From a virus: a DNA stretch of 26,870 nucleotides. This document shows, one piece after another, positions 3,026 through 19,371 of this stretch (its first letter is position 1; each line of letters opens with the position of its first letter). The stretch covers positions 1 to 26,870 of IMG/VR virus record IMGVR_UViG_3300042561_000208, one strand, 5' to 3'. The notes under the pieces were generated by a model. It did not search any database and was not told where the DNA came from. It was given only the letters and a program-made list of their open reading frames with translations. The position numbers and the translations under genes are program-made.

Positions 3026-4282
3026 CTATAGTCCGAAGTTATTCATTAGGACTTCAGCATCGCTGAATGAGCGTTGCTGGTATAACTTAGTCTTCTTAAA
3101 CTCAGGTAGGGTATATAGATACTTCTGCCATTCTTCTGGCGTCATCAATTCCTTACCCTTAAATACTGGATACATCTTAGAAATTTCAACTGCATTCTCA
3201 GGTACACCGTAGATTTTTGAATAGATACCAGTATATGTAGCAAGAGCTTCTTTAGTTGTAAGCCCCTGCTGGAAGTATTTCTCTAGTGCAGGGAAGGCAA
3301 CCTGTGCCTGTACTCCAATTTTCTGCATTGTATTTTCTAGGGCTTGACGACTTCTGATTCCATCGACTGCTTGTTTATATAGACTCTTATCATCAACTGG
3401 AATACCATAGGCATCATATGTCTTGCGTAAAACATTATAGACTCCACCAAGAGCACCTTTTTGTAGAAGCATGGAATCTGGTTGTTTGTCACCCTTGAAT
3501 ATATCCATTGCTTTTTTCTGAACAAAGTCAAGAAGTAATTGTTCGCGTTCTAGTTGGGTGATGTTTCCACCACGCTTTAGCTCCAGCTTATTGATTGTAT
3601 CAACATACTGATTAGCGAGTTCTTTATCAGCCTTAACATCAAGGTAGTCAAGGAATGATTGATTGAGTTCTACTCTAAGAGCATCTGCCGGGGTAAGACT
3701 AATCTTCTTGCCAACAAGTCCTGATATATCAAGTGTCTGTTTAGCAAGCTTAGGGTCTGCATAGAAACGATTGATAGTATCGCTGATATCTTCCCCGACA
3801 GTATCGGAGATGTACATTAATTTCTCTACAGCAGCAGCATCTTCAGGGCGTACGGTTATTCTACCAGAAGCAGCCAGACTCTTTAAATATGATGCAGTCG
3901 GTCTGTCCTTTTCATTGCCGTATGCGCCAGGTATCTGAGCAAGTTTGCTAAGTATTGCTATTCTTTGTTCATTATTAAGAGTCTGCAGGAATGTCATTCC
4001 TGAACCTCTAGAATACTGAGTCTTCTTTGTTATGAATGCACCAGGAACTGGTCTTCCAGTTGAAGTCTCAGGTGGACGATTAGTTGATGTTCCACCATAA
4101 ACTGGACTACCTATTGGTCTGCCGTCTAAGCCAATCTTTCCACTAGAACCAGTATTAGTCGGTGGCCCTCCAGCGTTCTTTGCTTCGCTAGAAGCTTTAT
4201 CGACAAGCTCAGTGGAGGTTTTAGTTTTATTGTCTTTAGGTTTGTACCTATCTTTGACATTAGCTGGTGTCGTGACACTCAC
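3026..4282 (-). CDS. Structural-region protein, low-complexity N-terminus, unknown function
   Basis: A 418-residue protein. The GTG start at 4282 shares its first base with the stop codon of the 1616-residue gene (TAGTG), which implies translational coupling, and a TGGAGG site lies just upstream. Residues 1 to about 95 are rich in Thr, Gly, Pro and Lys and probably disordered. The rest is helical, with segments such as GMTFLQTLNNEQRIAILSKL and LTTKEALATYTGIYSKIYGV. The latter resembles an LTT-[QK]-[DE]-hydrophobic stretch in the 451-residue neighbour, so the two may be distant relatives. No enzyme motif is visible. Position in the virion operon suggests an internal or tail-associated structural protein. 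The assignment is weak beyond being a real gene. Confidence 0.6.
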   Translation of the reverse strand: MSVTTPANVKDRYKPKDNKTKTSTELVDKASSEAKNAGGPPTNTGSSGKIGLDGRPIGSPVYGGTSTNRPPETSTGRPVPGAFITKKTQYSRGSGMTFLQTLNNEQRIAILSKLAQIPGAYGNEKDRPTASYLKSLAASGRITVRPEDAAAVEKLMYISDTVGEDISDTINRFYADPKLAKQTLDISGLVGKKISLTPADALRVELNQSFLDYLDVKADKELANQYVDTINKLELKRGGNITQLEREQLLLDFVQKKAMDIFKGDKQPDSMLLQKGALGGVYNVLRKTYDAYGIPVDDKSLYKQAVDGIRSRQALENTMQKIGVQAQVAFPALEKYFQQGLTTKEALATYTGIYSKIYGVPENAVEISKMYPVFKGKELMTPEEWQKYLYTLPEFKKTKLYQQRSFSDAEVLMNNFGL

Positions 4283-7200
4283 TACTTAGCCTCCAACTCT
4301 CTCTTGAAAAACGCATAGTACATATTCATAAAATCTGGGTGACGAGCTATGATTTCTTTAGCTCTTTCAGCAAGCCATTGACGCTGTGGCAATGAAGCTT
4401 TATTCGCTAAGCTATCTGACTTATTACCGCTAGCTTCTACTGCTTGCTCGCGTAGGTATAGATAGTCACGAAGTCCTTGCACTGCATCTGAATCATCAAA
4501 GCTTTCATCAAGAGCCATACGCTTTAGCTGCTCTTTGATGCGCTTGTTGCGGTACGGGTCAGCATCATACTTTAATCCAGCTCCTACAAATGACTCTGTT
4601 AGGTTGCGAGAAGATTCATCGAACTGGTCAGATTCCCAGTTCTCGCCAACTGAGCGAGCAAGGAGTGTATCCTTTGCCGCATTGTAGCGGAGCATTGTTG
4701 CTCTCTGCATTAACTCTTCGGTACTGAATCTTTCTTTATTTCCCATACGGCGTTGCCAACGATATAGCTCTGTAGAATATCCTCCGCCTGGATAGGCATA
4801 GCCATATACATCTGGATATATATCTACAACCTCTGGATTTTCCTTAACAAGTTCATATGTGTAAAGATTTGTAGGGGCACCAGTTGATGTAGCTATGATA
4901 GCAAAGGCATAATTAGGGCCATATAAATCAAAGAAGTCACGATAAGCCTTGGCTCTATCCCCACCAGAAGCAGCTTCTAACTGTTTAAAATCATTATATA
5001 AAGCTGTTGTTAGTAGGGTATTTCCATCCTCTAATGTAGTCAATCCAGTAGGATTAATAGGGAATGGTGAGACTAATCCAATGATACCACGGAAAGTTGT
5101 AAAGAACTTAGCAAAGAAGTCAGCATCTTTTATCAGTTTTGCTTGGTCTTCCATATCATCTAAATCATAACCGCCACTAGATGCAAGATAGTTCATCGTT
5201 GGTGCAAAGGCTGCAGCATATCCTTCTTCTGGGCTAACAGGAGCTAGGATACGACGCCAGTTACCAGGCAAGAAACCTTCTATAAACCCTGTCTCAAAGT
5301 CAGGACTTCCAAATGGAAAAATAAACTTATATGCCATATCACGCAAAGTAGGAGTTAACAACTGAAGTGGTTGAATTCCTGCCTTATCAAGGGCAGATAA
5401 TGGTATAGTTAATCCTGGGCCTACGCCTGGAATAATGCTACCTGAAGCAAATGCAAAGTTAAATGATTGAGGTGTAGCAGCTGCAGCATAAGGGCCGCTG
5501 ACTGCGGCACGACCAAATACTAGATTAGTCATGAAGTTCATGCCAGTTGCTAGGAACGGAACAAAGAACTTACGTTGACCATCTAATGGGTCCGTATAAA
5601 AGAACCCTTGGTTTGGGTCATAGTAGTCTCTAGCATCAGTCAATTGGTACATAGCAGACGACTCTGGCTTAGTCAGCCATTGCAATCCCTTGTTAATCTT
5701 GTACAATTGCATTGGATTGTTAAGGGCAATGTTGCCCCAAGCATTAATTGTATTTTGCCAAGCTTGTCCAAATGGTAGTATTAGACGGAATTGATGGAAC
5801 AATAGACGCTTCTTAGAAGCATCATAGAATAGTTCAGCTACATGTCGGCTAGCTACAGTTGATGCGTACTCATGAGCCATCTGAGCGGTAACATTTCCAC
5901 CCTCTTTGGTCTGCTCGAAAGCTTTCCATACCTGGTGTTGCTTACCGATAGGTTGACCCTTCCAGCTCTTGAGCGGGGTAAGGGACTTCTCTGCAACTAC
6001 CTTAAGCTGTGCTACTGCTGCTGCATCCAATGAGCCAGCAATATCTAGGACGGTATCCCAATATTTCTGACGCCATTCAGGACCCATGGTGCTAGACTTT
6101 TCTAGAGATATTGCTTTATCAAAGAATGATTCAATAAATCTATTTATTCTACCTTCTTCTTCTTTACCCTTTTTAGCAAACTTAGCTACAGGGACATTCA
6201 TTGCTAGATTTTCCCAGCTACCTTTACCATCAAAGGCATTCTTAAGAACGCTAGCAAATTCTTGATTTGCATCAGCTAAAGCTTTTTTACCTTTAGCAAT
6301 CTCTTCTGCATTCCTAATAGAATTTTCTGCAGACTGTAATCCCTTTGGAACTATGATGTTAAAGGATTCACTTTGGATTTTGCCAAAAGCAATTAAGTTC
6401 TTAATAGCTTGTGCAGCTTCGCCGTCCATACCTGCTGCTTCATCAACTCGAGCGCGTACTGAAGTAAGCTGCTCCTTTTTATTCTTTCCAGTGAACAAGT
6501 AGTTCATTGCGCCTTCGTCAGTTAAAAGCCACTCACGAACATCTTTTGGTTGACCGTTAGCGAACTCTTCCCATTCTTTCTTTCCAGCACCTCTTAGAAC
6601 ATAATCAACGCCAGCTTGTTCTTTACCAAGAGCGGTACGGGCTACTACTCGGCCACCGATAGAGTTGCTAAGGATACGAATTTCATTTGCTAATCCTTCG
6701 AACCAACGTGGATGACCATATTCTACTGGTACAAAGCCAGCAAATGTCATAGCGGTTCTAACATCTGTATCAAATGATGTTACACTCTTGCTAGCCATGA
6801 ATGCAATATAAGATTCTTTGGCGTTATGAGCTAAGACTTCAGTTCCGAATTCATCTACCGCACTACCAAGCTTCATGCCTGGGCCCATAACTGTATCTTT
6901 GTATGGGTCAAATGCTGCTAATAATCTTCGCATTGGATTAGAGCTTGTTTCATTACCAAGCCACATAGCCATAGCCGTTACTGGGTTGTTAAAGAAAGAA
7001 ATATGACCAGTACCTAGTACACGAATCTGCTCTTCGGCAATATTGCGAAGAATGTATGCGGGACGAACAAGGACCATTTTCTTCCAGTAGTTACTGGTAA
7101 GATTGTTAGCCATCTTTCTAAGTGCCTGTACATTACTACCGCCATATCTAGTAATACTAGAAATGATATCAAGTATATCATCTGCTGGCGGTAGATAAAC

Positions 7201-9132
7201 CATAGAGTTTAAATACTCAGAGTCTAGATGCGGGCCAGTAATAGTTTTTTTCTTACCACCAACCATTATATAATCAAGCTTTGCCCCTGCTGCGTGACGG
7301 TCAGCCCAATAACGAGCCATCTCCTGACGTCCATTTTCAAATACACGAGTCGCTTCTTTTAGAGCTTCAGCGTCTATTTTATTTTTGCCAGAGTTGGCTC
7401 TGAAAATCTCATCAAATAGCCTACCTGTAGCAGCATAGCCTACAGCTGATGCATCATCTGCATATACTACTGTGTTTACTAAATCATCGATTACATTCTC
7501 TGGCACATTAGTAGCGCGACCATAGTTATATATAGAACTAACTAGAGCATCCTTATCAGATGCGTGCACTAAGGAACCACCAGGTAGGATTACGGCGTAA
7601 TTCTTAGATACAGTGCTCATGACGTTACCAATAAATGGTAATTTAGCCACTCCTCTTGCACCAAGTCCCTTAACTGAGTTGACTACTTGAGTGGCTTTAC
7701 CTGGAACAATACGTGAATTAGCTAAACCACGAATGGCGTTTCCAACTTTGGTACCAGTTTCTAGCACATCAGCTACAACTTCTCCTTGAGCGATGTATTT
7801 TGCTAAGACACCAAGGACTTCTTCTCTTGTGGTAGCAGCAGCTAGCTCTTTTGCTTGCTCAACACTAAAAGCACCGCGGGCGCCGCGTTGTTTACCTAAG
7901 CCATAGATTTCTTTAAAGCCCATACCAGCAAGAGAGTCAACAATAGGTGCACCATTGGAGCCACTAAGGAACTTAGCAATTGCTTCAGGGTCATAAACTA
8001 TGTTATCATACTCGTCAGCAACTTGCATCTGCTTCTTAATAGCATCAGCAACTTCTTCTTCACGAGCTAAACGACCAAACCCGCTAGATGAACGCCATGC
8101 TTCGATAGCTTCGTTGGTCTGTTTAACCAATTCTTCTAGCTCTGCTTCCTTAAGCGCTAAGTCTCTAGCAGTTGTTGCTGCTTTCATACCAGAAGATAGG
8201 CGAGCTGTACGCTCCAACTGGTCTTTTATCATTTTTGCACGGGTATAAGCTATGCCAGGGTCAGACATAATTAAAACTACTAAGTCACCGATAGCCGAAA
8301 CTAGGCTACCTTTACCGCTGTCAGGCTCTATGAATGGAATAAACTCAATTACTGGGTCAAAGAAAGAGTAAGGACGCTCATAAGTTCTTCTATCATCTAG
8401 TTTAACTACTATCTTTGCTGATTCTAACTTTGCTTGACGTGCAGCAAAGCCAAGCCCAGTCTCTTCTGAAGCAAAAAATCCTTGGCCAAAGTCAATAGCT
8501 TTGCCTTCAGCAATAGCTTTTCCAATTTGACCAGCTTTAGTTTGGTCAACGATTGCTTTAGGAGCGCTAGCGTCACGTCCACCGAATACTGCTCCAGTCA
8601 AATAGCCAGCTTCTTCGCGGGTTTTATTTGGGTCAGTAGGTTGACCTGTCCAAAAATCAATGTCTCCGCTAGAGTAAGCATCAAAAGATTGTTTGAGTGT
8701 ACGGACACCAGCGCCTAGTAATTCAAAAGGAGTCTCTAGCGCTAAAGTTCCAAAACGTGTAAAACCTTTTACATACTTCCAAACTTTGCCACGAACTGTC
8801 TTATCAAATTTCTCATTAGCAATACGTTGAGCTTCAAGGAATGCATTCTGCTCACGCTGAGCCTGAGTCATGCTATCAATATCAACTAGTGTTTTTACTA
8901 AATCATTATTAGGAATAGCATAGTTTTTTGATAGACTTGCTAAAAGCCCACCAGACATTCCTGGATTATCTAATATAAGTTGACGTGCATTGACGCCTTC
9001 TTGGCCTGGAATAAGTCTAGATGCTTTAACTAAATCTTCGTAATCAGCTTGCTGTTGAGTTATAGTCCGTTCCTGAACTCCAGTAATTGTCCAGGTACCA
9101 TCTTTATTTTTTTTTACACCTGGTTGACTCAC
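4282..9132 (-). CDS. Very large (1616-residue) virion protein, candidate internal or ejected protein
   Basis: By far the longest gene in the window. The GTG start at 9132 overlaps the upstream stop by 4 nt. The protein is mostly helical, with scattered hydrophobic or amphipathic stretches. Around residue 690 is KKMVLVRPAYILRNIAEEQI. Around residue 1110 is FHQFRLILPFGQAWQNTINA. A Gly/Ala/Pro-rich hydrophobic segment of about 90 residues follows, containing FVPFLATGMNFMTNLVFG and SGSIIPGVGPGLTIPLSAL. No polymerase, lysozyme or protease motif was found. A giant helical protein with membrane-active-looking segments in a head operon suits a protein packaged in the head and ejected with the DNA, or a tape-measure-like role. 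It lies between portal and scaffold rather than after tail genes. Function is inference only. Confidence 0.7.
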   Translation of the reverse strand: MSQPGVKKNKDGTWTITGVQERTITQQQADYEDLVKASRLIPGQEGVNARQLILDNPGMSGGLLASLSKNYAIPNNDLVKTLVDIDSMTQAQREQNAFLEAQRIANEKFDKTVRGKVWKYVKGFTRFGTLALETPFELLGAGVRTLKQSFDAYSSGDIDFWTGQPTDPNKTREEAGYLTGAVFGGRDASAPKAIVDQTKAGQIGKAIAEGKAIDFGQGFFASEETGLGFAARQAKLESAKIVVKLDDRRTYERPYSFFDPVIEFIPFIEPDSGKGSLVSAIGDLVVLIMSDPGIAYTRAKMIKDQLERTARLSSGMKAATTARDLALKEAELEELVKQTNEAIEAWRSSSGFGRLAREEEVADAIKKQMQVADEYDNIVYDPEAIAKFLSGSNGAPIVDSLAGMGFKEIYGLGKQRGARGAFSVEQAKELAAATTREEVLGVLAKYIAQGEVVADVLETGTKVGNAIRGLANSRIVPGKATQVVNSVKGLGARGVAKLPFIGNVMSTVSKNYAVILPGGSLVHASDKDALVSSIYNYGRATNVPENVIDDLVNTVVYADDASAVGYAATGRLFDEIFRANSGKNKIDAEALKEATRVFENGRQEMARYWADRHAAGAKLDYIMVGGKKKTITGPHLDSEYLNSMVYLPPADDILDIISSITRYGGSNVQALRKMANNLTSNYWKKMVLVRPAYILRNIAEEQIRVLGTGHISFFNNPVTAMAMWLGNETSSNPMRRLLAAFDPYKDTVMGPGMKLGSAVDEFGTEVLAHNAKESYIAFMASKSVTSFDTDVRTAMTFAGFVPVEYGHPRWFEGLANEIRILSNSIGGRVVARTALGKEQAGVDYVLRGAGKKEWEEFANGQPKDVREWLLTDEGAMNYLFTGKNKKEQLTSVRARVDEAAGMDGEAAQAIKNLIAFGKIQSESFNIIVPKGLQSAENSIRNAEEIAKGKKALADANQEFASVLKNAFDGKGSWENLAMNVPVAKFAKKGKEEEGRINRFIESFFDKAISLEKSSTMGPEWRQKYWDTVLDIAGSLDAAAVAQLKVVAEKSLTPLKSWKGQPIGKQHQVWKAFEQTKEGGNVTAQMAHEYASTVASRHVAELFYDASKKRLLFHQFRLILPFGQAWQNTINAWGNIALNNPMQLYKINKGLQWLTKPESSAMYQLTDARDYYDPNQGFFYTDPLDGQRKFFVPFLATGMNFMTNLVFGRAAVSGPYAAAATPQSFNFAFASGSIIPGVGPGLTIPLSALDKAGIQPLQLLTPTLRDMAYKFIFPFGSPDFETGFIEGFLPGNWRRILAPVSPEEGYAAAFAPTMNYLASSGGYDLDDMEDQAKLIKDADFFAKFFTTFRGIIGLVSPFPINPTGLTTLEDGNTLLTTALYNDFKQLEAASGGDRAKAYRDFFDLYGPNYAFAIIATSTGAPTNLYTYELVKENPEVVDIYPDVYGYAYPGGGYSTELYRWQRRMGNKERFSTEELMQRATMLRYNAAKDTLLARSVGENWESDQFDESSRNLTESFVGAGLKYDADPYRNKRIKEQLKRMALDESFDDSDAVQGLRDYLYLREQAVEASGNKSDSLANKASLPQRQWLAERAKEIIARHPDFMNMYYAFFKRELEAK

Positions 9133-15815: not shown

Positions 15816-16016
15816 ATGAGCGATAGCGATTACTTGCTAGTTCTTGCTCCTAATGAGTTAGACACTATCCGCACCGCGCTACGCGCTGAGAGCGATAGAT
15901 GTAAGCGACAAGGATTTGAGGGGTTAAAGACCCACACCGATAATCTTAGAGATAAGATTAGCAACATGATGATTGAACACACCTACACTAGACTTGAAAA
16001 CAAGTCTAAGGTATGA
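15816..16016 (+). CDS. Small helical protein, unknown function
   Basis: A 66-residue protein, MSDSDYLLVLAPNELDTIRT followed by a charged helix and ending RLENKSKV. The AGAGGGG ribosome-binding site lies just before the ATG, 2 nt after the upstream stop. Its last codons encode the 8-bp hairpin and -35 element of promoter P4 (15989-16017). Overlap of coding end and promoter is common in compact phage genomes. No family is recognised. Confidence 0.5.
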   Translation: MSDSDYLLVLAPNELDTIRTALRAESDRCKRQGFEGLKTHTDNLRDKISNMMIEHTYTRLENKSKV

Positions 16017-16017
16017 T
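15989..16017 (+). promoter_or_regulatory. Rightward promoter P4 over an 8-bp hairpin, before the amidoligase gene
   Basis: TAGACT (15989-15994), a 17-bp spacer and TATGAT (16012-16017). TAGACTTG-AAAA-CAAGTCTA (15989-16008) is a perfect 8-bp dyad with an AAAA loop that covers the -35 and most of the spacer, so a bound regulator would block polymerase. The leader leads straight to the TAAGGGGGTGAGATA ribosome-binding site of the amidoligase gene. Confidence 0.5.
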
Positions 16018-16054
16018 AAGATAAGGCAACGATAACACCTAAGGGGGTGAGATA

Positions 16055-17260
16055 ATGCCAGATGATAATGATGATGATTTAGTTAGTTGTGGTGAGTGTA
16101 ATACTGAGATAAATGAGGGTGATTCTTTCACTACTAACAATGGTGAGATAGTCTGCTCAGATTGTATCCAAGTGTGCCAATACTGTGAAAGCATATACAC
16201 TTCTAATGATGATTGGTATAGTGTAGGTAATGAGTATTGGTGCGAGAGTTGCTGGAGTAATGATTCTTTCACTTGTAATCGTTGCGACTACACTACCAAC
16301 TCCCACCGAGATGGTGGAACTAATGTAGGTGATGAGTATTGGTGTGAGAGTTGCGTAAGCGATAACGCCACCTATTGTGATGAGTGTGATGAATACTATC
16401 CTGATGGTGATGAGTGCTCATGTAGTCAAAACAATCGGGGCGTAGTTCATCAGTATTCATACAAACCTAACCCTGTCTTTCATGGTGGCAACGATAAGAA
16501 TCTCTACATGGGCTTTGAGTTGGAGATGTCTTTCGGTGATGACCCTGATAGGGGTGATTACAGTAGCGCCATATCTGATGTGATAGAACTAGAGCAAGCA
16601 GATGTCTGCTATCTCAAGCAAGATGGTTCTATTAGTGGCTGGGGGTATGAGTTAGTCACGCACCCACATACGCTTACTGCGTATGAGCAAGCCACCGACC
16701 TATGGAATTATATTGAGTCGTGTCGCAAGAGGGGCGCGAGAAGTTGGGATACGGATTCATGTGGGCTTCATGTCCATGTGTCGCGTAGTGCGTTCAAGTC
16801 GGGCGCTCATACGCACCGATTCTTGTCGCTCATCTATCGTAATCCGCGAGAGATGATGAAGTTAGCTGGGCGCAAGAACTCGCGCTTTGCTCGCTTTGAT
16901 GATGTCTATACGCCTGATGAGTGGGGTATCCCACAATTCAACTTGCGAGATAAAGTTCATTATGCTGGTAGAACCGAGCGATATAGTGCGGTGAATACCA
17001 ACAATGACTACACACTAGAGTTGCGCTTCTTTCGTGGCAACATGAAGCGCGAGGGTATCATGAGTGCCCTTGAGTTGTGCCACGCTTCGGTAGAATACAC
17101 ACGCAATATGAGTGTGCCTGATGTAAAGTTGGGTATGCTCAAGTGGGAGTGGTTCGCCGATTGGGTAGCCACTAACAATGGCTTATATCCTAACCTATAC
17201 CAGCGCATGTCCAAAGTGCCTAGTATATCCTTATCAACTCCAACACTAATCAATGCCTGA
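16055..17260 (+). CDS. Zinc-finger/amidoligase fusion protein
   Basis: A 401-residue protein in two parts. Residues 12-123 hold eight Cys pairs arranged as about four LIM-like or treble-clef units: C12/C15/C34/C37, C41/C44/C63/C66, C74/C77/C97/C100, C108/C111/C121/C123. Two of these units are near-repeats with a G-[ND]-EYWCESC core. From about residue 150 comes an amidoligase domain of the glutamine synthetase-like fold (Amidoligase_2): GFELEM at 153-158, KQDGS plus YELVTHP at 188-204, CGLHVHVSR at 236-244 and a later TLELRFFRGN. Family members form amide or isopeptide bonds using ATP. The next gene is a class II glutamine amidotransferase that could supply ammonia. The zinc units may bind the protein or nucleic acid target. 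Domain call is strong; substrate is unknown. Confidence 0.8.
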   Translation: MPDDNDDDLVSCGECNTEINEGDSFTTNNGEIVCSDCIQVCQYCESIYTSNDDWYSVGNEYWCESCWSNDSFTCNRCDYTTNSHRDGGTNVGDEYWCESCVSDNATYCDECDEYYPDGDECSCSQNNRGVVHQYSYKPNPVFHGGNDKNLYMGFELEMSFGDDPDRGDYSSAISDVIELEQADVCYLKQDGSISGWGYELVTHPHTLTAYEQATDLWNYIESCRKRGARSWDTDSCGLHVHVSRSAFKSGAHTHRFLSLIYRNPREMMKLAGRKNSRFARFDDVYTPDEWGIPQFNLRDKVHYAGRTERYSAVNTNNDYTLELRFFRGNMKREGIMSALELCHASVEYTRNMSVPDVKLGMLKWEWFADWVATNNGLYPNLYQRMSKVPSISLSTPTLINA

Positions 17261-17271
17261 GGGGGTGTTAT

Positions 17272-18183
17272 ATGTGTCTATTAGTAGTATGTAAGCCTAA
17301 CGCTATACCAAAGCGTGAGGAACTTACAGAGGGAGCATGTGCTAATCCACATGGCTTCGGCTTTGCTATCGTAGCAGATGGTAAAGTTATCCGCTATCGC
17401 ACAATGAGTGCCAAGAAGGCGGTGTCTAAGTTCTTAGAACTACGCGAGCAGTATCCTAGTGGCTATGCTATATGGCATGCTAGATACGCTACGCATGGTG
17501 TAAAGAACGAGGATAACTGCCACCCATATCAAGTCGGTGATGATACCAATACTTTTCTAGCGCACAATGGTGTGCTAGATACCTTCATCAGCAAGGGCGA
17601 TAAGCGTAGTGATACGCGTGTCTTTGCTGAGGATACGCTACCTAAACTCGGTGGTGTGCTCGCCCTTGAGGACGAGAACATCTATCGTATGATTGAGGGG
17701 TGGGCTAGCGGTAGCAAGATAGCCGTGCTCACCACCAATCCACAAGCCCAATACCAACTCTATCTAATCAATGAAAGACTTGGAACTTGGGACGACAATG
17801 GTGTATGGTGGAGTAATTCGAGTTATAAGCGGGCAGTAGCCACGCCACGCTCGTATTACAATCCATCACCTAACCCTATCGCTGATACAGGTGCTTTCGC
17901 AGAGGATAACTTTGCTGACGAGCAATCTTACTACGCAGAACTTCAAGCGCAGTTAGATAGCTACGCCATCATAGATGAGTGTCCCATGTGTGAAGCCTTG
18001 ATTGACATAGAAGTGTCCGTAGATTTCTGCCAATACTGCGAGGCATGCGTGTCATGTGGAGCACATCAACTAAATTGTATGTGCTACACACCCTATTCTG
18101 CCCAGCCAAAGCAACGCGAGTTTGACTTTGACAACCAATGGGTAAGAGTGTATAATAAAGACCAACAAGCACTACCTTACTAA
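17272..18183 (+). CDS. Class II glutamine amidotransferase with C-terminal zinc-binding tail
   Basis: A 303-residue protein. Cys2 follows the initiator Met, as required for the N-terminal nucleophile of class II amidotransferases. NPHGFGFAI (25-33), WHARYATHG (68-76) and LAHNG (96-100) match the glutamine-binding and oxyanion-hole motifs of the family. The enzyme should hydrolyse glutamine to ammonia. Residues 237-271 contain eight cysteines (CPMC, CQYC, CVSC, CMC), likely two zinc sites absent from simple YafJ-like members. It begins 11 nt after the amidoligase stop, behind GAGGGGGTG, so the two enzymes are almost certainly co-expressed. It might feed ammonia to the amidoligase or act on its own. 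The target is unknown. Confidence 0.82.
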   Translation: MCLLVVCKPNAIPKREELTEGACANPHGFGFAIVADGKVIRYRTMSAKKAVSKFLELREQYPSGYAIWHARYATHGVKNEDNCHPYQVGDDTNTFLAHNGVLDTFISKGDKRSDTRVFAEDTLPKLGGVLALEDENIYRMIEGWASGSKIAVLTTNPQAQYQLYLINERLGTWDDNGVWWSNSSYKRAVATPRSYYNPSPNPIADTGAFAEDNFADEQSYYAELQAQLDSYAIIDECPMCEALIDIEVSVDFCQYCEACVSCGAHQLNCMCYTPYSAQPKQREFDFDNQWVRVYNKDQQALPY

Positions 18184-18673: not shown

Positions 18674-18997
18674 ATGAAGGGCTCTTGCTCCACACACCCG
18701 AAGCCTGACCTATGGTTTCCTGAGCAACCTAAGGGCAGACCCACTATGGCTAAGCGTAAAAGACTTGCCGATAGTGCTATGCTTGCTATTGGTATCTGCC
18801 AAGATTGCCCCATCAAAGCAGAGTGCTTAGCCGAAGGCATGAAGCCTGAGAATATAGAGTATGGTATATGGGGTGGCATGCTAGCAGGTGAGAGAATACT
18901 CATGGCTGGCATACCAACTAACCGAACTATCCGAAGCGACGCTATCACCTTCGCAGAAGGAGTAAGAGTATGGCAAGACATATCGCTCACTACATAG
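18674..18997 (+). CDS. WhiB-family iron-sulfur transcription regulator
   Basis: A 107-residue protein with the WhiB signature: C5 in GSCSTHPKPDLWFP, then C42-x2-C45-x5-C51 (CQDCPIKAEC), then the YGIWGGM turn at 63-69. Four cysteines would bind a [4Fe-4S] cluster. WhiB proteins regulate transcription by contacting sigma region 4 of the host polymerase and are characteristic of Actinobacteria and their phages. The ATG follows AGGGGGTAAT. The C-terminal tail lacks a long basic stretch, so direct DNA contact may be weak. Its presence with a phage sigma-like protein suggests control of host polymerase. The next gene overlaps its end by 28 nt. Confidence 0.85.
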   Translation: MKGSCSTHPKPDLWFPEQPKGRPTMAKRKRLADSAMLAIGICQDCPIKAECLAEGMKPENIEYGIWGGMLAGERILMAGIPTNRTIRSDAITFAEGVRVWQDISLTT

Positions 18998-19371
18998 GAG
19001 CACTAATCTTTACTATCATATTCACCATTGTGATAGTAGAACCACTAAGCACACCGCACAAGTATTCTAAGAAGGATACTTGGACAGTAGAGGATAGCAA
19101 AGGCTACGCCTACAACAGGCTATCCGAGTGGCGTGATAAACAGATGTCTTGCCTTAGTAAACTGTGGGGTAAGGAATCAGCATGGAAACCCAACGCATAC
19201 AACAAAGTAAAAGTTATGGGTAAGAATGCTGGCGGTATCCCACAGATACTAGGGCTAGACCCAGCAACACCCCCCACCAAACAGATTGACAGGGGGCTTG
19301 AGTATATATATTATAGATACGATACTCCCTGTCAAGCTTGGGCTCACTTCAAAAAGAAAGGGTGGTACTAA
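18970..19371 (+). CDS. Membrane-anchored lysozyme/transglycosylase-like peptidoglycan hydrolase
   Basis: A 133-residue protein. Residues of about 9-23 (IGALIFTIIFTIVIV) are a signal anchor or uncleaved signal. The C-terminal domain (from about 58) matches the actinobacterial lysozyme-like fold: C61-x4-WGKESAW with E69 as candidate catalytic acid, NAGGIPQ, then YIYYRYDTPCQAWAH-FKKKGWY with C121 able to pair with C61. The ATG follows AGAAGGAGTAAGAGT and overlaps the WhiB gene by 28 nt. It sits in the rightward accessory block, far from the M15 endolysin and holin. It could be a secondary lysin or part of DNA entry or superinfection control. Domain call is moderate to good. Confidence 0.65.
   Translation: MARHIAHYIGALIFTIIFTIVIVEPLSTPHKYSKKDTWTVEDSKGYAYNRLSEWRDKQMSCLSKLWGKESAWKPNAYNKVKVMGKNAGGIPQILGLDPATPPTKQIDRGLEYIYYRYDTPCQAWAHFKKKGWY

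Follow-up and report, generated by a model that had tools for sequence, protein, structure and literature searches.

The question raised by this locus is whether two adjacent genes of a freshwater actinobacterial phage, an amidoligase gene and a gene for a class II glutamine amidotransferase (GAT), make up a genuine functional unit, what such a unit would do, and whether it is of a kind already described. The pair lies in a virus record of 26.9 kb (26,870 nucleotides, the whole of which was analysed and is called the window below), whose other genes are those for terminase, portal, WhiB, transglycosylase-like and sigma-like proteins, primase and DnaB. The amidoligase gene is the first of the two (16055-17260, plus strand, 401 aa), and the GAT gene (17272-18183, plus strand, 303 aa) follows exactly 11 nt past its end. 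The ORF check agrees with the first-pass annotation in these coordinates and in the spacing, and every motif listed there, namely GFELEM, YELVTHP and CGLHVHV together with Cys2 and AHNG, is located. A Shine-Dalgarno-like GGGGG precedes the amidoligase at 16043-16047 (plus strand), where it is kept in near relatives, and another precedes the GAT at 17261-17265 (plus strand), inside the 11-nt gap. Purifying selection acts on both genes: dN/dS lies at about 0.13-0.36 in the amidoligase and at 0.09-0.45 in the GAT, where the value of 0.45 is that of a single close pair in which changes are very few. Both proteins are already contained in PHROGs as phage families (phrog_16683, 1.4e-33, for the amidoligase, and phrog_25883, 4.1e-32, for the GAT), and PADLOC gave no match to anti-phage defence genes.

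Profile searches bear out the identity of the first protein as an amidoligase (Amidoligase_2, a glutamine synthetase-like ligase), which had been claimed from motifs: it matches PF12224 with an E-value of 6.4e-8 and 33.2 bits, exceeding the curated cut-off of 22, and so do 24 of 24 aligned relatives match this family, while phrog_2443 'amidoligase enzyme' is also matched (3.6e-9). AlphaFold models were made for each protein singly, from alignments of 24 relatives. For the amidoligase model, with a pLDDT of 78, Foldseek against PDB gives Dop as the best match, besides glutamine synthetase (GS), GmaS (gamma-glutamylmethylamide synthetase), PafA and YbdK, with E-values of 1e-5 to 1e-4, probability 1.00 and modest TM-scores of 0.3-0.4. 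The catalytic core covers residues ~151-352 (16505-17110, plus strand), as given by the invariant columns and the HHalign motif alignment. Its catalytic residues, E155/E157 (ExE), D190, E199, H239/H241 (GLHVHVS), R309 and E322/R324, are invariant across 41 relatives, and nearly all of them are kept in nine very divergent proteins. In HHalign, GLHVHVS falls onto GSGMHCHMS and TLELRF onto RRIEVRF of E. coli GlnA with a low probability of 19%, and GFELEM falls onto GIELEM of YbdK with a low probability of 5%; nonetheless these motifs coincide with known GS sites, and the metal- and ATP-site residues (ExE, GxHxH, ExR) are all present.

The second protein is a class II glutamine amidotransferase-like Ntn hydrolase, an assignment already made in the first-pass annotation and upheld here by the profiles, by the Ntn fold and by the Cys right after the start Met. 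It matches PF13522 (1.5e-6) and PF13230 (1.7e-6), each beyond its cut-off, and GATase families are matched by 23 of 24 aligned relatives. In the glutaminase (Ntn) domain (17272-17841, plus strand), all of 43 relatives retain the motifs Cys2, H69-A-R71-Y-A-T74-H75-G76, H98-N99-G100 and S113-D114-T115 without change, and an alignment to GlmS sets HARYATHG and HNG against its HTRWATHG and HNG. This alignment places the glutamine-site residues R71 and N99-G100, while D114 is placed by motif. Because the active-site residues are invariant and are aligned with GS or GlmS sites, both proteins look catalytically intact, from which we infer catalytic activity.

The function of the GAT can be read in two ways, one being the supply of ammonia and the other the trimming of gamma-glutamyl bonds. 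The model of the GAT (pLDDT 72) is matched by Foldseek to the GlmS glutaminase domain (5.8e-7), then to PurF and EgtC; by sequence the nearest proteins are GlmS and PurF, in each of which the glutaminase domain supplies ammonia, and EgtC is absent from the sequence-search matches although it is matched by fold. We give an even chance to the pair being a glutamine- and ATP-dependent two-component amidating or ligating enzyme, which is the preferred reading because the GAT is nearest to the ammonia-supplying GlmS and PurF and its gene shows tight linkage to that of a ligase that uses ATP. In such an enzyme, the GAT with its N-terminal Cys2 as the nucleophile would split glutamine and pass ammonia to the amidoligase, and the GS-like amidoligase, with ATP and Mg2+, would activate a carboxylate and convert it to an amide. 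A different division of labour, possible but doubtful, is that of a ligase and a gamma-glutamyl hydrolase of the EgtA/EgtC or PuuA/PuuD type, where the amidoligase would couple an amine to glutamate or to some other amino acid, the Ntn protein would remove or trim gamma-glutamyl groups, and no ammonia would be transferred. This accords with the fold match of EgtC to the GAT and of the gamma-glutamyl ligases YbdK and GmaS to the amidoligase, and with the gamma-glutamyl cyclotransferase (GGCT) that accompanies the amidoligase in Clostridium prophages and is also found in LUZ24/phiEco32; the corresponding gene of the LUZ24/phiEco32 cassette is called an aminohydrolase in PMC11945000, and the GAT is placed among degradation genes in PMC5498523. 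It accords less with the sequence relationship of the GAT to GlmS and PurF rather than to EgtC, and with the window lineage having no GGCT.

In addition to the catalytic domains, each protein has a Cys-rich array, and both arrays went unmentioned in the first-pass annotation. In the amidoligase, the array covers residues 12-123 (16088-16423, plus strand) and is probably zinc-binding and LIM/treble-clef-like; the N-terminal ~125 residues contain 14 Cys, mostly in CxxC pairs, which are invariant in 41 relatives. The likeness to LIM is weak, with an E-value of 0.016 to LIM chains for the family profile, and with the LIM profile matching one of 24 ligase members at a weak 0.021. In the GAT, a zinc-ribbon-like C-terminal region (residues 234-271; 17971-18084, plus strand), which is a low-confidence part of the model, has eight conserved Cys, C237, C240, C253, C256, C259, C262, C269 and C271, all invariant or nearly so. 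Among 117 scorable pairs, the ligase array contains three or more CxxC in 97, and in 91 of those 97 the GAT contains two or more as well; the other 20 pairs, of the MEP402 type, have one or two in the ligase and none in the GAT. The arrays probably bind zinc, and they would join the two proteins or dock the substrate; zinc binding, complex formation and the transfer of ammonia are further properties that we infer for the pair. It is unlikely, in our estimate, that the pair is a modification machine distinct from the larger LUZ24-type cassette, in which the zinc arrays of both subunits would build one complex and recruit a macromolecular host target (a surface polymer, the ribosome or RNA polymerase) for glutamine-dependent amidation or for peptide conjugation.

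The arrays also bear on a protein or peptide tagging function, in which the amidoligase would attach a peptide or an amino acid to a host protein by means of the LIM-like array. LIM-like arrays elsewhere mediate protein-protein binding, the 14 Cys are invariant, the best Foldseek match is the depupylase Dop, and the Pup ligase PafA is also listed. However, Dop and PafA are two among many equally good matches in the GS superfamily, the Cys-rich arrays could equally bind a partner or nucleic acid, and neither a conserved third gene nor a tag peptide is found beside the pair across the phage groups, and we regard tagging as quite unlikely.

As for transcription, the first-pass annotation had placed the pair behind a dedicated promoter. 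The site concerned is a promoter-like TTGAAA-17-TAAGAT (15994-16022, plus strand), ~32 nt before the amidoligase gene begins, which in the window has 9/12 consensus matches and alone is no better than chance. At the same position, however, relatives have near-consensus boxes, TTGACA-17-TANAAT in five (L012, L013, L014, L016, L018) and TTGACT-17-TATAAT in two (L068, L071), so that the upstream promoter is backed by comparison and not by the window alone. A second site, TTGACA-17-TATAAT (18128-18156, plus strand), lies in the 3' end of the GAT gene with a 12/12 match to the sigma-70 consensus; it has the same position in most near relatives, although it also overlaps conserved coding sequence. 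Transcription of the following unit probably begins there, and the site would thus delimit the pair at its downstream end. With the upstream boxes on one side and this promoter of the next unit on the other, the pair reads as its own transcription unit, the promoters here being consensus matches and not mapped sites. Further along the window, at 18674-19371, a WhiB-like gene overlaps a small transglycosylase-like gene whose product has an N-terminal hydrophobic stretch; the lineage as a whole conserves this block.

We then consider the pairing across phages. In 125 of 132 loci, the GAT gene lies on the same strand as the ligase gene and follows it within 300 nt. Most of the loci come from a single lineage of phages whose gene order is fixed, so they are not independent counts. 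Among the exceptions, three are contig ends (L017, L060 and L124), one lacks a GAT (L048), one has a single intervening gene (L050), one has three, an ATP-grasp among them (L052), and one gives a weak match (L109). In loci of the MEP402 type, the two genes overlap. A sample of 33 metagenomic loci, picked by DnaB independently of the pair, has both genes in 32, and the remaining locus is cut by a contig end; for long contigs, 17 of 18 have both genes and the last one breaks off within the GAT gene. Nearly all members of a common lineage of freshwater actinophages thus have the pair. More telling than the counts from the 132 loci is that it recurs in some ten groups of phages, among them those infecting Mycobacterium, Methylophilales and Acinetobacter as well as gut and uncultured phages, in which the other shared genes are only generic ones for replication or packaging. 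The pairing is not a by-product of shared phage ancestry, because the pair persists in unrelated groups that have no other specific neighbours in common. Therefore the earlier view of a two-gene system agrees with the 132 loci, with the ten or so groups and with the DnaB sample alike: the amidoligase and the GAT form a genuine module, and what recurs is these two genes by themselves. Neither outcome named in the first-pass annotation as refuting, a missing profile match or a lack of conserved pairing, was observed. Comparison of the two trees by a Mantel test gives r 0.90 over 34 sequences, which is inflated by one lineage, and r 0.21 (p 0.07) when each of 13 groups is reduced to a representative. 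Cellular genomes were scanned by strict patterns, which does not prove absence of the pair from chromosomes, and the distant alignments A3 and A4 are too variable for a pattern scan.

Several loci show departures from the common arrangement. Tandem duplication is seen in L103 (3633-7936) and L104 (4380-8088), each cluster having two amidoligase genes and that of L103 also two GAT genes. The sole 'archaeal' match, L101 (JAHPYZ010000033.1), comes from a Lokiarchaeota MAG bin; beside the pair it has replication genes of phage type, and the contig probably belongs to a phage of uncertain host. On the linear plasmid pGD21-2 of Mycobacteroides abscessus (L146, 153322-155020), a Marvin-like amidoligase is followed by a GAT like that of glucosamine-6-phosphate synthetase, and similar amidoligase matches are found in NZ_CP015269.1 and NZ_CP025548.1; these mycobacterial plasmids, like pGD21-2, are about 150 kb in size, and they may be phage-plasmids. 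In a Clostridioides phage and a plasmid (L048, 5686-7875, and L147, 5668-7856), the amidoligase has no GAT and adjoins an RlaP-type nucleotidyltransferase. Since the homologous ligase of Clostridioides phages has no adjacent GAT, the ligase can work without one, which counts against the two-component reading.

Cultured relatives tell about the host and about the need for the pair. LanE43AprE7 and AprF5 (E7 and F5 below) are cultivated Planktophila phages (PMC10202952), and both genes are missing from them (OX376640.1 and OX376641.1; L148-L151). They are syntenic with the window, with identities of 78% for TerL, 81% for DnaB, 74-75% for primase, 61% for sigma, 40% for WhiB and 41% for the transglycosylase. 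Owing to this synteny, the host of the window phage is likely to belong to 'Ca. Nanopelagicales'; WhiB is present in 15 of 15 long relatives tested. As E7 and F5 lack both genes, the pair is gained or lost together and is dispensable for lytic growth in some members. A search for a substitute in the corresponding interval of F5 finds no informative candidate: the ORFs there are small ones and one that is nuclease-like. Near the structural genes, the window also encodes on the minus strand (4282-9132) a 1616-aa protein without PHROG matches, and E7 has a 1764-aa protein of similar size downstream of portal.

Returning to the amidating reading, the target would most likely be a cell-wall peptide of the host or a small peptide precursor, and the modification would alter the surface of the infected cell. 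The cell-wall substrate and the role in superinfection exclusion are the weakest part of this proposal, the sole tie to peptidoglycan in the window being a transglycosylase-like gene close by, which is probably transcribed from a promoter of its own. An auxiliary role in nitrogen metabolism, with the pair recycling ammonia and glutamine in the infected cell, is very improbable: hosts possess their own GS, and ammonia assimilation needs no dedicated ligase with substrate-binding Cys arrays. Such a role has been argued for the Planctomycete phage ZRK32, which has amidoligase, GAT, glutathione synthase and GGCT genes and promoted growth (PMC10945688), but the growth effect is not assigned to these genes. 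Annotations of phage amidoligase and GAT genes go back to about 2009, the role given to them being a guess, and we found in the literature no assay and no demonstrated activity for any phage amidoligase/GAT pair. The two-gene form is small enough to be expressed and tested, so the question of what phage ligases act on becomes directly testable, and cultivated relatives exist both with and without the pair. If the cell-wall reading is true, the pair would give a phage an enzymatic means of changing the surface of bacteria that rank among the most abundant groups in fresh water.

Finally, we compare the pair with known systems. Two cellular enzymes offer a similar division into ligase and glutaminase-like partner. 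MurT/GatD combines a Mur-ligase fold with a class I GAT and is non-homologous to the phage pair. It likewise has a co-transcribed ATP-using ligase and glutamine-splitting partner, in peptidoglycan amidation of Staphylococcus (PMC3267633), and is an analogy only. EgtA/EgtC of ergothioneine synthesis likewise pairs a GS/GCS2-like ligase with a class II GAT-like Ntn hydrolase; unlike an ammonia-feeding GAT, EgtC hydrolyses a gamma-glutamyl bond, and it is unmatched by sequence.

Among phages, the closest described system is the LUZ24/phiEco32 cassette, which shares adjacent homologous amidoligase and GAT genes (LUZ24 gp18 and gp19 against the window pair, HHalign 2.6e-7 and 1e-6) and adds a COOH-NH2 ligase, a RimK-like ATP-grasp and GGCT. 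According to PMC5498523, PMC10580990 and PMC11945000, this cassette is proposed to change peptidoglycan and thereby block superinfection; PMC10580990 and PMC11318856 trace the proposal of cell-wall modification and superinfection exclusion to 2009, and Iyer 2009 and Hardies 2013 are the sources of the cassette as cited in PMC10580990 and PMC5498523. In 15 contigs of 39-41 kb from the window lineage, neither GGCT nor the COOH-NH2 ligase (PF14395) is found, with LUZ24 and phiEco32 positive as controls for GGCT; a repeat of the PF14395 search on seven of these contigs again gives none, and there too LUZ24 and phiEco32 are positive. No RimK-like ATP-grasp is found in the window lineage either, by a PF08443 search that also missed LUZ24's own. 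As GGCT and the COOH-NH2 ligase are absent, the window pair is a relative of the cassette and not the full cassette.

The simpler two-gene form is also known. In the Mycobacterium phage Marvin (cluster S), gp105 and gp106 have the same order, an amidoligase-like protein and then a class II GAT, with about 34% and 30% identity to the window pair and Cys motifs in both proteins, and the genome has neither GGCT nor the COOH-NH2 ligase, as in the window lineage; Marvin differs in the longer C-terminus of its amidoligase, a shorter Cys array, a gap of ~80 nt and another gene context. The Methylophilales phage MEP402 shares the order in gp06 and gp07, although there the genes overlap, and GGCT and the COOH-NH2 ligase are again absent, with LUZ24 and phiEco32 as positive controls; it differs in its Gram-negative host and in its CxxC motifs, of which the ligase has one or two ahead of the core while the GAT lacks them. 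In uncultured Caudovirales, A0A6J7X5D3 'Amidoligase enzyme' and A0A6J7X2B6 'LIM domain containing protein' are full-length structural matches with 47% and 18% identity, and databases thus already contain this architecture. The first-pass annotation had regarded the pair as an undescribed system, which does not hold, as the pair is annotated in Marvin, MEP402, an uncultured podovirus and pGD21-2, is homologous to part of the LUZ24/phiEco32 cassette, and has been discussed in papers. The pair is therefore of an already described kind, to which the present analysis adds the Cys arrays, the near-universality in one lineage and the joint absence from cultured relatives.
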